Assembly: GCA_903889965.1 (NCBI GenBank)
Contig: CAISZM010000019.1
Coordinates: forward strand, 1-46,479
Direction of reading: 5' to 3'
From: an uncultured Elusimicrobia bacterium
Lineage (GTDB): Bacteria > Elusimicrobiota > Elusimicrobia > Elusimicrobiales > UBA9959
Length of the DNA stretch: 46,479 bases
The position numbers and the translations under genes are program-made. Below are positions 16,356 through 23,478 of this stretch, piece after piece. The notes below the pieces were generated by a model. The model worked only from the letters and a program-made list of their open reading frames with translations, ran no database searches and was not told the origin of the DNA. Position 1 is the first letter of the stretch. Every line of letters starts with the position of its first letter.

Positions 16356-19300
16356 TCAGCCTTCGGCATTCCGCATGTATTTCTTCCTGAACCAGATCTC
16401 CAGATCGTCGAACAGCGTGTAGGTGACCGGGGTCATCAGCAGGGTAATCAGCAGCGAAAGCGTCTGGCCGCCTATTATGACCCAGGCCATCGCGCGCCGC
16501 GAGCCCGAGCCGGCGCCCGTGCCCAGCGCCGTGGGTATCATGCTGGCCACCAGGGTGAAGGTGGTCATCAGTATGGGGCGCAGCCGGGTCTTATTGGCCT
16601 CTATCGAGGCCGCGTGGCGCGCCATTCCCCTGGCCCGCAGGGTGTTGGTGTAGTCCACCTGCAGTATGGCGTTCTTCTTGACGATGCCGAACAGCATGAA
16701 GATGCCCATGATGCTGAAGAGCGTCATGCTCTGCCCCGCGGCGAACAGCGAGATGACCGCGAACGGCAGCGTCAGCGGCAGCGCAATTATAATGGCCACC
16801 GGGTAGACGAAGCTTTCGAACTGGCTAGCCAGGACTATGTAGATGAAGATGAAGGCCATCATGAAGGCTATAAGGAAGCCCTTTAACATGTTCCCGAGCT
16901 CCTTGGCCCGGCCGCTGGCCCCGCCGGTATATTCCGCGGGCGGGTTCTGCGCCTTGAAGGCGGCGTCCGCTTCCTTTATCAGGTTGCCCAGGGGCATGCC
17001 GTTGGTGTTGGCCTCTATGGTTATCTTGCGCTGGCGGTTGTAGCGCTCTATCTGCGTGGGGCCGAACCCTTCCACTACCCGCGCCACGCTGTCCAGGCGC
17101 ACCATGCGCCCTCCGTTCGCCGGCACTACCATCGCTTCTATCACGTCCTTCCTGTCGCGGAAGTTCTTGTCCGCGCGCACGCGCACCTGGTAAAGATCGT
17201 CGCCGTCCTTGTACTTGGTGATATCCTCTTCGCCGCCCACCAGCGTCCTGAGCGAGGTGGCTATGTCCTCTATCTTGACGCTGAGGTCGTGGGCGCGGTC
17301 GCGGTCTATCTCCACGCGGTACTCCGGCTTGGCGTAGGAAAAGCTGGTGTCCACGTCCACCACGCCCTTGAGCGAGCGGATATGGTCCGCTACCGCCGTG
17401 GCGTACACTTGCAGCTTGTCCAGGTCCGGCCCCGTGACTATATATTGCAGTTCCTTTTCGCCGCCGCCGCCGAAGCCGCCTATCGGCGCCACGGCGGTGC
17501 GGAGCCCGGTGTACTTGGACATCATCTGGCGCGAAGTCTCCATTATTTTCTTGAGCGGCGGCCTCTTGGAAAGGTCCACCAGCTCCACTGTAATGTAGCC
17601 TTCGTTCGAGGCTGAGGAACCGAAATGGGCGCCGGTGCCGGTGCCGATGGAGGACAGCGTGGTGACCACGTAAGGTATGGTCTTGGTCTCGGTTTCCACC
17701 TGCGAGAACAGCTGCTTCATCACGTCGAGACTGGTGCCCTCGGGGGCTTTTATCGTTATCTGGTACTGGCCGGTATCATCCTGCGGCATGAAGTCCTTGC
17801 CGATGAGCATGAACAGCGGGATCATCGACAGCATGATGCCTATGGAACTGAATACCATGGTTTTGCGGTGGGACAGCGCCCACTCGAGCAGCCTGATGTA
17901 GCGGCTGGAGAGGTATTCGTTGATATGGTCGGTGAAGCGCTGCAGCCTGGTTTTTTCGCTGCTTTTCACCTTCAGGAACAGCGAGCACAGCATGGGCGTG
18001 AGGGTCAGCGCCACGAAGGTGCTGATGGCTATGGCGAACGCTATGGTGAGGCCGTAGCTTTTAACGAAGCGCCCCACGATGCCGCCCATATAGGCGAGGG
18101 GGAGGAAGATGACAATAAGGGAGAGTGACATCGCAATGACGGCGAAGCCTATCTCGTCCGCGCCGCTTAGCGCCGCCTTCACCGGGGAGATCTTGTGCTC
18201 CTCCATGTGGCGGTAGATGTTCTCAAGCATGACTATGGCGTCGTCGATGACAAGGCCTACGGCGATGGTAAGGCCCAGCAGCGTCATGTTGTTAAGAGTA
18301 AAGCCGGCGTAGTCCATGAAGATGAACGTGGCTATCAGCGAGGTCGGTATGGCCAGCGCCGAGATGATGGTGGACCTGAAGTCCCCGATAAATAACAGCA
18401 CCATGAGGCCGGCGAGGAGCGCGCCCAGCATCAGGTGTTCCCTGACCGTGTCCACGGAGCTCTGTATGAACTCCGACTGGTCGCCGACTATCTTGGTTTC
18501 CACGCCCTGCGGGATTATCGACCGCACCGACTTCAGCCTCTCCCGGATGTTCTTTACAACTTCCACGGTGTTGGTGCCCGACTGCTTTTTTACCACCAGC
18601 GTGACGGCGGGTTTACCGTTAAGGAAGGAGGCGGTGCGCATATATTCGCCCGTGTCTTCCACGGTGGCTATATCCGAGATGTGTATGGGCGTGCCGTTCA
18701 CGCTGGTTATCACTATGGAATTAAAATCTTTCACTTCCTTGATGCGGCCGAGCGTGCGCAGCACGAATTCTTTGTCGGGTTGCTCCACCTTGCCGCCGGG
18801 TATCTCTATGTTCTGCTGGGTGATGGCGTCCTTCAGCTGCTTGGTGGAGATGTTCAGCGAGGCCATCTTCAGCGGGTTGACGACTATGTGTATTTCGCGC
18901 TCGCGGCCGCCCACCACGTCCACGGAGCCGACGCCGCTTACCGTCTCTATGTTCTCCTTGATCTTCTTCTTGGCGAACCGCGTCAGCTCCACCAGGTCCC
19001 GGTCCCCCGAAACCACGATATTGACCACGGCCACGGCGCCGATGTCGAACTTGGACACCACCGGCTGGTCCGTGCCCTGGGGCAGTTGGGCCAGCACGGA
19101 GTTTATCTTGTCGCGCACTTCCTGCGCGGCCACGTCGCCGTTCTTTTCCAGGATGAACTTTACCAGTACTACCGACTGGCCTTCGTAGCTCGTGGACGTG
19201 AGCTCGTCTATGCCGGAGATGGTGTTCACGGCTTCTTCTATGGGCTTGGTCACCGACGATTCTATCTCCTCGGGTCCGGCCCCGCGGAGCGTAGTCTGCA

Positions 19301-19439
19301 CCACCACGAAGGGGAATTCAACGTTGGGGAAGAGGTCCACACCCAGGCGGAGGTAAGAAAATACACCCAGTACTACCAGCGCCGCCACCATCATGGTGGT
19401 AAGTATCGGGCGCCTGACTGAAAGTTCGGTTATCTTCAT
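16356..19439 (-). CDS. RND efflux transporter permease (AcrB/MdtB family)
   Basis: 1027 aa, the normal length for HAE1-type RND pumps. The N-terminus SVRRPILTTMMV leads into TM1, followed by porter-domain sequence PxxEFPFVVVQTTLRGAGPEE. TM4 carries the proton-relay aspartates in GLVIDDAIVMLENI (about residues 395-408), then FLPLAYMGG and LTPMLC. The second half repeats the layout (FILASQFESFVYP-like segment, FGIVKKNAILQVDYTN, RLRPILMTT). It exports drugs or lipophilic compounds using proton motive force. Last gene of the leftward operon, 20 bases after the adaptor gene. The stop lies close to the shared bidirectional terminator. Confidence 0.95.
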   Translation of the reverse strand: MKITELSVRRPILTTMMVAALVVLGVFSYLRLGVDLFPNVEFPFVVVQTTLRGAGPEEIESSVTKPIEEAVNTISGIDELTSTSYEGQSVVLVKFILEKNGDVAAQEVRDKINSVLAQLPQGTDQPVVSKFDIGAVAVVNIVVSGDRDLVELTRFAKKKIKENIETVSGVGSVDVVGGREREIHIVVNPLKMASLNISTKQLKDAITQQNIEIPGGKVEQPDKEFVLRTLGRIKEVKDFNSIVITSVNGTPIHISDIATVEDTGEYMRTASFLNGKPAVTLVVKKQSGTNTVEVVKNIRERLKSVRSIIPQGVETKIVGDQSEFIQSSVDTVREHLMLGALLAGLMVLLFIGDFRSTIISALAIPTSLIATFIFMDYAGFTLNNMTLLGLTIAVGLVIDDAIVMLENIYRHMEEHKISPVKAALSGADEIGFAVIAMSLSLIVIFLPLAYMGGIVGRFVKSYGLTIAFAIAISTFVALTLTPMLCSLFLKVKSSEKTRLQRFTDHINEYLSSRYIRLLEWALSHRKTMVFSSIGIMLSMIPLFMLIGKDFMPQDDTGQYQITIKAPEGTSLDVMKQLFSQVETETKTIPYVVTTLSSIGTGTGAHFGSSASNEGYITVELVDLSKRPPLKKIMETSRQMMSKYTGLRTAVAPIGGFGGGGEKELQYIVTGPDLDKLQVYATAVADHIRSLKGVVDVDTSFSYAKPEYRVEIDRDRAHDLSVKIEDIATSLRTLVGGEEDITKYKDGDDLYQVRVRADKNFRDRKDVIEAMVVPANGGRMVRLDSVARVVEGFGPTQIERYNRQRKITIEANTNGMPLGNLIKEADAAFKAQNPPAEYTGGASGRAKELGNMLKGFLIAFMMAFIFIYIVLASQFESFVYPVAIIIALPLTLPFAVISLFAAGQSMTLFSIMGIFMLFGIVKKNAILQVDYTNTLRARGMARHAASIEANKTRLRPILMTTFTLVASMIPTALGTGAGSGSRRAMAWVIIGGQTLSLLITLLMTPVTYTLFDDLEIWFRKKYMRNAEG

Positions 19440-19459: not shown

Positions 19460-20380
19460 TCAGTCCGCCGGGTTGACGTCCGGAGCCGGACCTTCCTGCG
19501 TCTTTATCTTGCTGCCGTCCTTAAGGCCGTAAAGCCCGAAGGTTATCAGTTCCTCGCCGGCGCGGAGGCCGCCGGAGATCTGCACGTAATCGCCGTTGGA
19601 GATGCCGATCTTTACGTTCCTGCGCGCCGCGGTTCCCTTAACGGGAACGAATACGAATGAGCCGCCGCTGTCGTTCAGCACGGCGGAAGCCGGCACGGCC
19701 ACCGCGCCTTCCCTGGCGCCCGTCACGAGCCGGACTTCGGAGAACATGCCCGACTTCAGCCTGCCGCTGGAGTTGTCCGTCAGTATCTCTATGGCCGAAC
19801 TGCGCGTTTTAGTATCTACCACGGGGCTCACGCGGTATACTTTGCCGCGGAACAGCGTGTCGGGGAAGGCGTCCACCTTTATGTAGGCGGCCTGGCCGTT
19901 GAAAACCCTGCCCACGTAGCGCTCCGGCACATCCACCACCACGCGCACCCGCCCCTGGCTGACGACCAGGGCTATCGGGGTCTGCGGGGTTACATTGGAG
20001 CCGGAATCCTGGTAGACGCGGCCGATCACGCCGGTGAGCGTGGACGGCACGGGGGCCGGCTCGTAGACCACACCAGGCTCGTCGCGCTCTATCAGCGCCA
20101 CGGGCTGGTCCTTGCTTACCGCGTCGCCTTCGGTAAGGAGGTTTTTCAGCAGCTTGCCCGAGACGCGCGGGTAAAGCACGGCTTCGTCCATGGCTTTCAC
20201 CGAGCCGACCAGTATCAGGTAGTCCTCTATGTTCTGTGTCCGGGCCTTTTCGGTCCTGACCACGAACCGGTCCTTCTCGAGGTTGTTGAAGGCGTCGAGT
20301 TCCTTGTTTTTGCACCCGGCCTGCATAAGCGCGGCCGCGGCGACCGTTAATACCAGTATTTTGTTCTTGATTTTATTCAT
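19460..20380 (-). CDS. RND periplasmic adaptor lipoprotein (membrane fusion protein)
   Basis: 306 aa. A signal sequence ends in a lipobox (ALMQAGC, Cys about residue 23), so the protein should be lipid-anchored. It then shows adaptor features: a first beta-barrel/lipoyl segment (VSGKLLKNLLTEGDAVSKDQ), a short hairpin region, the second lipoyl half (LTGVIGRVYQDSGSNVTPQTP), and a membrane-proximal domain (GAREGAVAVPASAVL, then FVPVKGTAARRNVKIG). The coiled-coil hairpin is very short compared with AcrA, which suggests a short-hairpin adaptor. It bridges the RND pump and TolC. It starts 21 bases after the TetR-TolC ORF and precedes the pump by 20. Confidence 0.9.
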   Translation of the reverse strand: MNKIKNKILVLTVAAAALMQAGCKNKELDAFNNLEKDRFVVRTEKARTQNIEDYLILVGSVKAMDEAVLYPRVSGKLLKNLLTEGDAVSKDQPVALIERDEPGVVYEPAPVPSTLTGVIGRVYQDSGSNVTPQTPIALVVSQGRVRVVVDVPERYVGRVFNGQAAYIKVDAFPDTLFRGKVYRVSPVVDTKTRSSAIEILTDNSSGRLKSGMFSEVRLVTGAREGAVAVPASAVLNDSGGSFVFVPVKGTAARRNVKIGISNGDYVQISGGLRAGEELITFGLYGLKDGSKIKTQEGPAPDVNPAD

Positions 20381-20401: not shown

Positions 20402-22288
20402 CTATTCCCCCAGGGTCCATTTCAGTTCCGCGTTGGTGCTGCAGACGTCGTGCTGGGCCTGGGTGTAAAGTGTCTGCGCCTTGTTCAGGGCCAGCGCGGC
20501 GTCATTGAGTTCCAGCTGCCCCGACAGCCCGTTCTTGAAGCGGATCTCGGTGGCCGAGAGGGCTTTATGGGCCTGCTCCACAGCCGTTGTCTGCGAGCGG
20601 AGGCGTTCGGAGGCCTCCTGCGCGCTGAGCCAGGCTTCTTTGACCTCTATCTTTATCCTGCGCTCCAGTTCCGCCAGGTTGGTGGCCGCTATGTCAGCCT
20701 GGAGTTTCGCCTGGCGCGTCCTTGAACTGACCGAGCCGCCGGCGAAAAGCGGCAGCGACAGCTTTATCCCGGCGGTGGTGCTCCAGCTCTGCTGGCCGGA
20801 GTCCGGGAAGCCGGAGTCGCTCTGGCCCTGGAATTCCCTAGCGGCGAAGGCGCTGAGGTAGGGGAAGTGGCCGGCGCGCTCAATAGTTATCATTTCCCTG
20901 TAAAGGTCGCGCTGGTATTTCATGTCGCGGTACTCGGGCCGGTTCGCCAGCGCCTCGGCGTAGCCGGAGACCGCGTCTGCGGGCCCGCCGGCCGCGCAAA
21001 CCAGATTATCGGAGAGGGCTATTTCCGCTTCCGGGTCCAGTCCCAGCAGGTTCTTAAGTTCCAGCAGGCCTTCCTCGTAGAGGTTCTGCGCCTGGGTAAG
21101 GGCCGGTTCGGTATTCGAAACCTCCACCTGCTCGCGCAGCACGGCCAGGTCGCTGGCGATTCCCTGCTTGTACTGGGCTTGTATGGTGTCGAGGTGCTGG
21201 CGCGCCAGGTCCAGCGATTCTTTTTGTATGCCGGTCATCGCGCGCGCGAGGAGTACCGAGTAGTAGATCTGTTTGACGGCCTTGGCCACGCCCTTCTGGG
21301 CAGTCCTCAACTGTTCGTCGCTGGCTTCGGAATAGATATTGGCCATCTTTATCCCGGTGTAAACCTTGCCGCCCGCCCAGAGGACCTGGTCCAGATTAAG
21401 CCCCGCGGTATATACGTTGTTGAGGCCGGTCTTGATCTTGGTCGCCCCCAGGAAAAAAGAGGGGGACTCTATATTGCGCGTGTATTTGGCGGTGGCGCTG
21501 ATCTGCGGGTAAACCGAACCCCAGTATTCGCTCACCCTTTCCTTATATATGCGGCGCGTTTCCTCGGCCGTTATTACGGTGGCGTTGTTGGCGAGCGCGG
21601 TGTTGATGGCTTCATCCACCGTAAGGTTAAGCCCCGCCGCGGACGCGCGGGCGGAGATCATGGCCGCCAGCAGCAGCGCGGCCGCCACAGCCTTCATGTG
21701 GCGCGCTCCGGAGCAGATAAGGCGCGCCAGCCGGCCGGGCAGGCCCTTGTCCAGGCTCGCCGCTCCGTTCTCCCGGGCCTCGATGATGAAATAGTCTATT
21801 ACCGCGCTCACCATGTGCAGGACGTTCTCCGCTCCCTGGCGGGGCAGCTTCTCTTTCCTGAGCATCGCGCGCAGCGCGCCGCGGTTGCGCTCCTTAAGTT
21901 CCCGGGCGAGAGAGTTCAGTATCCCCGCGGAGGGGGAGGCCATAAGCTTGAGGGCGCATTTAGGCATGTCCGGGTAGCGTTCTATAAAGTTGAGATGATC
22001 GGTAAAAAACTTTTCCAGTTTCTTTTCCAGCGTGAGTTCCGGGTCCGCTATCTGGTGAAGCAGTTCGTTGAAATGTTTCGTGCCCTCCACGAAGGCGGCT
22101 TTGATGAGCTCGTCCTTGTTCTTGAAGTAGTAATAGAGCACCGGCTTGGAGATCCTGAGCTTGGCGGATATCTCCCGCATCGAGACGCCGTCGGGACCTT
22201 TTTCCGCCATCATGGCCGAGGCCGTCTCCAGCACGCGTTGGCGGGTCTTGTCGCCTTTTGTGGCCTTCTGCTTTGTTTGATTTTTCAT
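20402..22288 (-). CDS. TetR repressor and TolC outer-membrane factor in one ORF
   Basis: 628 codons without a stop. Residues 1-197 form a complete TetR/AcrR repressor: a helix-turn-helix (MREISAKLRISKPVLYYYF), then a helical ligand domain. Residue 198 starts a signal peptide (MKAVAAALLLAAM... ASA), followed by a TolC/OEP protein: LTVDEAINTALANN, a long coiled-coil first repeat, and a second repeat ending in a short tail. Total TolC part is 431 aa, typical of the family. A good internal ribosome-binding site lies before codon 198. Either both proteins are made separately (TetR running into TolC where translation reads through), or this is a true fusion, which would be hard to secrete. First gene of the efflux operon. 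Confidence 0.88.
   Translation of the reverse strand: MKNQTKQKATKGDKTRQRVLETASAMMAEKGPDGVSMREISAKLRISKPVLYYYFKNKDELIKAAFVEGTKHFNELLHQIADPELTLEKKLEKFFTDHLNFIERYPDMPKCALKLMASPSAGILNSLARELKERNRGALRAMLRKEKLPRQGAENVLHMVSAVIDYFIIEARENGAASLDKGLPGRLARLICSGARHMKAVAAALLLAAMISARASAAGLNLTVDEAINTALANNATVITAEETRRIYKERVSEYWGSVYPQISATAKYTRNIESPSFFLGATKIKTGLNNVYTAGLNLDQVLWAGGKVYTGIKMANIYSEASDEQLRTAQKGVAKAVKQIYYSVLLARAMTGIQKESLDLARQHLDTIQAQYKQGIASDLAVLREQVEVSNTEPALTQAQNLYEEGLLELKNLLGLDPEAEIALSDNLVCAAGGPADAVSGYAEALANRPEYRDMKYQRDLYREMITIERAGHFPYLSAFAAREFQGQSDSGFPDSGQQSWSTTAGIKLSLPLFAGGSVSSRTRQAKLQADIAATNLAELERRIKIEVKEAWLSAQEASERLRSQTTAVEQAHKALSATEIRFKNGLSGQLELNDAALALNKAQTLYTQAQHDVCSTNAELKWTLGE
21697..21711 (-). 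promoter_or_regulatory. Internal ribosome-binding site and start for the TolC part
   Basis: On the minus strand CCGGAG precedes ATG (start base 21697) by 8 bases, and the codons after this ATG encode a standard Sec signal peptide. This supports separate initiation of the outer-membrane factor inside the continuous TetR-TolC ORF. If used, it gives a 431-aa TolC precursor ending at 20402. Confidence 0.6.
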
Positions 22289-22294
22289 AAAAAC

Positions 22295-22308
22295 TTACCT
22301 ACCGGTAA
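22295..22308. promoter_or_regulatory. Putative TetR operator
   Basis: TTACC, TACC, GGTAA: an inverted repeat whose core TACCGGTA is an 8-bp perfect palindrome. It lies just downstream of the promoter -10 box and covers the predicted transcription start, a classic position for autorepression by the TetR domain encoded immediately downstream (minus strand). Inference from position and symmetry. Confidence 0.6.
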
Positions 22309-22312
22309 ATAA

Positions 22313-22341
22313 ATTATAGCAGAGACCCGGCCCGCTGTCAA
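22313..22341 (-). promoter_or_regulatory. Consensus sigma-70 promoter of the efflux operon
   Basis: On the minus strand TTGACA (22341-22336) and TATAAT (22318-22313) are separated by exactly 17 bases: a perfect match to the sigma-70 consensus in both boxes. Predicted start near 22306, inside the palindrome 22295-22308, about 18 bases before the TetR ATG. So strong a promoter needs repression, which fits the operator. Confidence 0.85.
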
Positions 22342-22456: not shown

Positions 22457-22560
22457 TGAGCCCTTGTAATTCCCCGAACAGGCGGGGAAGCATCCACCAG
22501 CTGGCCCTAACCAGCCGTAACCAGGGGAAACGGAAATCTTATTCCGTTTCCCTTTTTTTT
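22457..22560 (+). ncRNA. Structured leader with intrinsic terminator (attenuator or riboswitch candidate)
   Basis: Three hairpins in tandem. TTCCCCG/CGGGGAA (22470-22489, 6-base loop); GCTGG/CCAGC (22500-22515); and an 11-bp terminator stem GGGAAACGGAA/TTCCGTTTCCC (22525-22552) followed by eight Ts. The next ATG lies only 21 bases after the T-run, with its ribosome-binding site (GGAG) at 22566-22569. TTCCCC at 22470-22475 could pair instead with GGGGAA at 22524-22529, breaking the terminator stem, so a two-state switch is possible. A weak -10 (TAGAAT, 22445-22450) could start the RNA near 22457. It fits no riboswitch class I know by eye. A free-standing small RNA is the alternative. Confidence 0.5.
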
Positions 22561-22581: not shown

Positions 22582-23478
22582 ATGAAAATAAACCTGATAA
22601 TAGTTCTCGCGCTCGCCGCCTCCCAGGCGGGATGGGCCGCGGCGGAAGATCGGATCGAGGCGAACACCCGCCTCGCTTTAGGCAAGCCGTTCCTTGACCC
22701 GGTTTTCCAGGACTACATAGAGACCTCCGGGGGCTATCTTAACTCCAAGAACACGATGCAGGTCCGCACCGATTTCAGCGATTTTCGCGACGCCCCGTCC
22801 GCGCTGCCCGTCCGAACTCTTAAAAATCCGGTCCCTGCCGCAAAGCTTCCCCTGGCGCGCCCGGCCGCTCCGGCTCCCGCGGCCGAGACCGCGGGCGTGC
22901 CCCCCGGGCATTACAAGGTCACCTTCGCCGGTGAGGGCGGTCCCGTGGGTTCCTTCGTCTGGCCGCTTGGGTCCGGCCCGGGTAAATATGCCCGGGAATA
23001 CGTGTTCATGACCGTGACACCGGACAATCCGGATTATAGCGCGCTCCTCTCGAAGCTGGAGTCGGAAACCGGGTTCCGGTTCGTGGGAGAGAAGATCTTC
23101 TATTCGGGGAATTCAAGGACGCTTGTGATCCTGGGCTGGGTTCCGGCCGCCAACCGGGTCAAGGTAGCGGGTCTGAGCGGCGTGGCAAGGGTCGTGGTGG
23201 GAAGGCAGGGCACGGGAGTGCCGCTTAAAACCAAGGTCCGTTTTACGCTTAAGGTCCCGTACCAGAACCGCCCCGCGGTCTTTGTGCCAGGCTTCCTAAG
23301 GCGCCTTGCGGACCAGAGCGGCTTTTCGGCGGAAACCCTGTTCCGCCTGCCGCAGAATAGCCGGGATTCCAAGTTCAGCGTCTTTGACGTGACGGGCACG
23401 CTGCCGGTGGACATGATAGGCGAACTTTCCCGTTCACCTTTCGTCGGGTCCATAGAGTTCCGCGATTCTTCGCTGTAA
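22582..23478 (+). CDS. Exported protein of unknown function with two similar domains
   Basis: 298 aa with a Sec signal peptide (about 1-20, cut after a WAAAED-type site). Residues 75-105 form a Pro/Ala-rich linker. Two C-terminal segments (about 135-212 and 215-298) each begin with a beta strand (REYVFMTVTP; KVRFTLKVPY), continue with a helix ending in SGF or TGF, and finish with a strand carrying a hydrophobic end (ARVVVG; VGSIEF). That pattern suggests two ferredoxin-like domains, as in peptidase-inhibitor I9 or propeptide folds, but this is inference. I do not recognise the family. It lies after an intrinsic terminator-bearing leader and before its own terminator, so it is a single-gene unit. 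Confidence 0.8.
   Translation: MKINLIIVLALAASQAGWAAAEDRIEANTRLALGKPFLDPVFQDYIETSGGYLNSKNTMQVRTDFSDFRDAPSALPVRTLKNPVPAAKLPLARPAAPAPAAETAGVPPGHYKVTFAGEGGPVGSFVWPLGSGPGKYAREYVFMTVTPDNPDYSALLSKLESETGFRFVGEKIFYSGNSRTLVILGWVPAANRVKVAGLSGVARVVVGRQGTGVPLKTKVRFTLKVPYQNRPAVFVPGFLRRLADQSGFSAETLFRLPQNSRDSKFSVFDVTGTLPVDMIGELSRSPFVGSIEFRDSSL

Follow-up and report, generated by a model that had tools for sequence, protein, structure and literature searches.

TetR-type repressors whose gene lies beside the pump genes under their control are known from AcrR of acrAB and MtrR of mtrCDE, and the locus described here shares with these systems this neighbourhood, an operator at the promoter (here a predicted one) and the involvement of a TolC-type factor. 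Whereas repressor and outer-membrane factor are generally known as separate proteins in the AcrR and MtrR systems, they form one polypeptide here. Within the Elusimicrobiota, the sister family f2 (L039-L053) encodes homologous TetR and TolC proteins in the same order and behind the same operator. In f2, however, a stop codon follows tetR, and tolC has its own start codon and Shine-Dalgarno sequence.

The layout of a cytoplasmic N-terminal DNA-binding domain, a hydrophobic segment and a C-terminal part on the periplasmic side is further shared with regulators of the ToxR/CadC type. Unlike those, the fusion has a TetR DNA-binding fold, a C-terminus that represents an outer-membrane channel and a segment that looks cleavable; the winged-helix OmpR-type domain of the ToxR/CadC regulators is missing, and TetR_N is the sole DNA-binding family matched in a Pfam scan of the fusion. 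A literature search of partial coverage for fused TetR-TolC proteins, or for TetR proteins tethered to a membrane, returned nothing relevant.

The DNA analysed, referred to as the window, is the whole stretch of 46,479 nucleotides from an uncultured Elusimicrobia bacterium (assembly GCA_903889965.1, contig CAISZM010000019.1).

Results and Discussion

The original prediction of a single uninterrupted TetR-TolC reading frame is borne out, as the frame at 20402-22288 comprises 628 aa without an internal stop, matches both TetR_N and OEP in Pfam and encodes, in this order, a full TetR repressor, a TolC signal peptide and a full TolC. Its parts are:

20402..22288, minus strand: TetR-TolC fusion ORF, 628 codons (628 aa), stop-free throughout
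21698..22288, minus strand: TetR repressor part, residues 1-197 (Pfam TetR_N, AlphaFold model, Foldseek, pN/pS)
about 22094-22231, minus strand: HTH of the TetR part, residues 20-65 (Pfam TetR_N)
21638..21697, minus strand: putative internal signal peptide MKAVAAALLLAAMISARASA, residues 198-217, including the non-conserved ATG 21697
20402..21637, minus strand: mature outer-membrane factor of the TolC family, residues 218-628 and the stop codon (Pfam OEP, Foldseek)

The TetR_N match (PF00440, residues 20-65) has an E value of 3e-14 and 52.8 bits against a cut-off of 24, and the OEP match (PF02321) covers the C-terminal 400 residues in two stretches with an E value of 7e-59 and 199 bits. In the AlphaFold model, for which 22 homologues served as input, two full folds are connected by a low-confidence helix (198-215), with the ligand/dimerisation helices of the TetR part running to residue 196 and the TolC protomer beginning at 220. 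Foldseek aligned the TetR part to whole TetR structures with TM values of 0.72-0.80 and the TolC part to whole TolC with about 0.8. Neither half is truncated. The TetR part hence combines an HTH above the curated cut-off with the all-helical ligand/dimerisation domain of its family (Pfam, AlphaFold, Foldseek), and the TolC part has the two OEP repeats; an N-terminal signal peptide, as expected for the primary product of a tolC gene, is absent, and the signal-like segment is internal (198-217 of 628). Selection on the sequence is visible on both halves, with uncorrected pN/pS values of 0.22 (HTH), 0.44 (TetR core) and 0.41-0.46 (TolC). Purifying selection acts on the repressor half, which, judged by its sequence, is functional.

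A database check for TetR-TolC proteins, which had been suggested with the original prediction, returned the same stop-free fusion from 47 genomes of Elusimicrobiota, with 48 sequences that share about 37-74% identity with the window's protein, and the possibility raised at the time that tetR and tolC are separate in all relatives does not hold, given these 47 genomes. The genus accounts for 30 of them and the rest of the family for 15, while two other families of the class are represented by a single genome each; the 45 fused genomes of one family carry nine genus labels, and the fusion is absent from G008 and G023, which also belong to the genus. In named records, the matched entries are MAGs of Elusimicrobia, and it could be objected that named homologues which are all metagenome-assembled leave room for a sequencing or assembly artefact. 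However, 47 separate assemblies agree, and because the same stop-free frame recurs in 47 genomes the junction is not a product of chance or misassembly; the artefact explanation was rejected and deserves practically no credence.

Of the fused sequences, 46 cluster in a single block of the TolC tree, two further fused rows (L092, L093) sit at an unresolved fork, and the distribution of fused and separate genes needs three changes of state, compared with about 23 for shuffled labels. The block contains a single separate member, L077 (genome G080), in which tetR and tolC are split, with an ATGA overlap and a new start that precedes a new signal peptide. Since it is the lone separate member among fused sequences, L077 is most simply read as a secondary split of the fusion. 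Two partial losses were also found. In a second, paralogous copy in G003 (L056), about 120 residues of the TetR core are deleted in frame and TolC is still fused; in L098 (G106:C64), just the C-terminal end of TetR is left in frame before TolC, the operator is absent and a different TetR gene lies upstream. Both losses preserve the frame and would agree with a translation of TolC through TetR.

One could argue that such a history requires no function at all, namely that a stop codon between neighbouring genes was lost near-neutrally and that the product is subject to unspecific proteolysis, the linkage having no regulatory role. The separate genes behind the same operator in f2 and the at least one reversal in L077 would fit with this explanation, but it has to account for the fusion being kept in 47 genomes, AT-rich ones included, with one clear reversal, and for a second, probably independent TetR-TolC fusion in G121 and G028. 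We consider it improbable. The second fusion is found in open frames of 641-649 residues (L112 and L055, respectively, from G121 and G028), of which the former is located as follows:

L112 1551-3434, minus strand: second TetR-TolC chain, TetR_N and OEP both above cut-off

The closest TolC matches of this chain are stand-alone proteins (42-44% identity), whereas its identity to the main fusion is 25-29%, which suggests an independent origin. Some further candidates were dismissed. The long TolC frames L101-L104, L114 and L120 of other class members, which had been considered as fusions by their length, were rejected as their in-frame upstream part is unlike TetR, and L054/L118, where TetR has a stop near the junction, were set aside as a representation of the ancestral state, given that their TolC is distant and that L054 is missing a close adaptor.

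With regard to how TolC is translated, the original prediction had pointed to CCGGAG 8 bases before an in-frame ATG at 21697 (residue 198), which is confirmed in the window sequence, and had considered initiation at both sites. Dual initiation in a broader sense would mean that the first ATG gives rise to the fusion (or TetR), whereas most TolC is made from lineage-specific internal starts in the end of tetR. The window's own ATG, with its well-spaced GGAG and an anti-Shine-Dalgarno energy of -5.8, is the kind of start that such a scheme needs, but it is not shared: codon 198 is ATG in 10 of the 48 fused sequences and encodes Leu (six codons), Ala, Val, Ile, Phe or Thr in the others. The most frequent codon at this position, with 13 homologues, is CTG, which is a rare but possible bacterial start codon. 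Eleven of the 48 sequences, including that of the nearest relative L079 (74% identical), have no ATG, GTG or TTG at residues 176-205 at all. Taking the best internal start of each sequence, the median energy is -3.3, while random windows come to -2.7 and the starts of 22 stand-alone tolC genes to -6.25, so that the overall strength is near random; a fair Shine-Dalgarno sequence (-6 or better) does precede an internal start in 9/48 homologues, against about 8% of random windows, but the positions differ. The 48 homologues have no internal Shine-Dalgarno sequence in common. A search for an internal promoter before tolC found none. Synonymous constraint is likewise absent at codons 190-198 (pS 0.55 vs an ORF mean of 0.53), with the proviso that a weak constraint could escape detection at a pS as high as about 0.5. 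The often conserved M159 and M168 in a TetR helix could start TolC with a long leader. At the junction (21668-21736), an IRES model of Rfam gave a match that was disregarded, its 19.5 bits being far below the gathering score of 40.

Consequently, a conserved start at ATG 21697 was rejected and initiation at this site is unsupported as a general mechanism, though the window's own organism may use it; dual initiation from lineage-specific starts is, in our view, rather unlikely. The comparison of the homologues strongly implies that, in general, TolC is made only by translation through tetR, i.e., that repressor and channel are co-synthesised.

The junction itself looks like a cleavable signal peptide. 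In 47 of the 48 homologues, no other 12-mer of the protein is as hydrophobic; K/R stand before it, and an A-x-A-type site is present in 43 of the 48, whereby these calls come from a simple hydrophobicity and A-x-A scan and not from a trained predictor. In the window, a probable signal peptidase I cut follows A217 (A-S-A/A-G; MKAVAAALLLAAMISARASA/AG), from which we infer cleavage. The original prediction had, as its other option, a repressor tethered to the exported protein. For a fusion that stays whole, the uncleaved membrane segment would anchor TetR to TolC and channel assembly would gate the repressor, a topology (N-in/C-out) that is known from ToxR/CadC-type regulators and with which the predicted helix 198-215, right after the C-terminal helix of TetR, would be compatible. 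Permanent tethering is nevertheless very unlikely, because what lies between TetR and TolC is of the cleavable signal-peptide type, with a short hydrophobic core and the A-x-A-type site in the said 43/48 homologues. In addition, the few residues between the segment and TolC are too short to span the periplasm, and the N-terminus of TolC is near the outer membrane in solved structures.

The fusion is the first gene of an operon in which it is followed by a HlyD-like adaptor and an AcrB-like RND transporter, and a promoter and a predicted operator precede it:

19460..20380, minus strand: periplasmic adaptor (HlyD/CusB-like), second operon gene (Pfam HlyD_D23)
16356..19439, minus strand: AcrB-type RND transporter, third operon gene (Pfam ACR_tran)
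22313..22341, minus strand: promoter TTGACA-17 nt-TATAAT with extended TG, 12/12 consensus match
22294..22309, minus strand: predicted operator TTTACCGGTAGGTAAG, after the -10 element and ahead of the start codon, conserved upstream of nearly all homologues
22296-22307, minus strand: operator core TACCGGTAGGTA, part of TTTACCGGTAGGTAAG

Every fused homologue examined has the adaptor after the fusion, and every one but a single case, where the contig ends first, has the RND gene next; adaptor and AcrB-type transporter thus adjoin the fusion in a conserved order, as in an RND efflux operon. A comparable -35/-10 pair was repeatedly found upstream of homologues. In nearly all homologues, whether the genes are fused or separate, the predicted near-palindromic operator TTACCGGTAGGTAA or a close variant of it is situated after the -10 box and before the start. 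The exact 12-mer occurs at 1-3 sites per genome in 34/41 genomes, compared with 0-1 for a reversed-pattern control, and G008 and G023, the genus members that have no fusion gene, have zero sites. In the window's genome the 12-mer is present twice, the second site being located upstream of another tolC that is followed by macA-like and ABC genes. Three further genomes (G003, G004 and G017) carry a site at the same tolC-macA-macB position, giving four in total, and one extra site, on contig 14 of G017, is not upstream of this operon. The second site argues that the repressor probably acts in trans as well, on a second efflux operon.

Three additional observations concern neighbouring regulatory elements. 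Upstream of tolC-macA-macB in L165, L166 and L167, a second palindrome such as TTGACCAGCCGGTCAG extends over the -35 region beside the TACCGGTAGGTA site, which suggests a target of a second repressor. In L084, L085 and L086 (genus g13), the fusion is closely preceded by a stand-alone TetR gene, and the operator separates the two genes. Lastly, the window contains a 2dG-II purine riboswitch aptamer at 22459-22529 on the plus strand (Rfam RF03165, 72.4 bits, above gathering), after which a terminator-like hairpin (22523-22554) and a gene for 298 aa without a Pfam match (22582-23478) follow; the protein of this gene may be under the control of a 2'-deoxyguanosine-type riboswitch.

From our point of view, the most plausible reading, and one that we hold to be somewhat better than an even bet, is that of one precursor, composed of TetR, an internal TolC signal and TolC, which is split at the signal peptide by signal peptidase I. 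A single TetR-signal-TolC chain would be made from one start codon and from a promoter that contains the protein's own operator. The TetR part would fold in the cytoplasm and the internal signal would direct the C-terminal part through Sec, giving the precursor an N-in/C-out topology, whereupon signal peptidase I would cleave at the A-x-A site and TolC, once freed, would assemble in the outer membrane. TetR would remain cytoplasmic, with a tail of about 20 additional hydrophobic residues that keeps it at the inner membrane for a short time at least. Its binding site would be TTACCGGTAGGTAA, in the promoter of its own gene and, in some species, also at the second efflux operon. With such a layout, repressor and channel would be produced at a fixed 1:1 ratio, and the release or position of the repressor would be tied to channel export; probably, equal numbers of both are made, and they come apart only on export of the channel. 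Export via Sec from an internal signal, cleavage, the hydrophobic tail, repression and the 1:1 ratio are all steps that we infer from sequence, and so is the reason why the coupling is kept. The linkage may serve regulation, for instance if TetR is retained at the membrane until export has been completed. A point against the precursor model is that secreted proteins do not usually carry a large folded domain in front of a cleavable signal peptide. One could further speculate that export and cleavage by signal peptidase set where and when the repressor is active, and that a failure of secretion or channel assembly would hence feed back on pump transcription; this extension is possible, though we regard it as doubtful.

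Conclusion

Overall, the locus represents an evolutionarily kept chain that unites a cytoplasmic transcription factor with an exported outer-membrane protein, and automatic annotation may label genes of this kind as TolC alone or TetR alone. If the chain is processed as proposed, signal peptidase would yield two proteins with opposite destinations and a fixed ratio from one precursor, and the status of secretion may be coupled to gene control. If, in addition, the reading of a feedback from export holds true, a transcription factor would be processed by the secretion machinery from the precursor of its own target.
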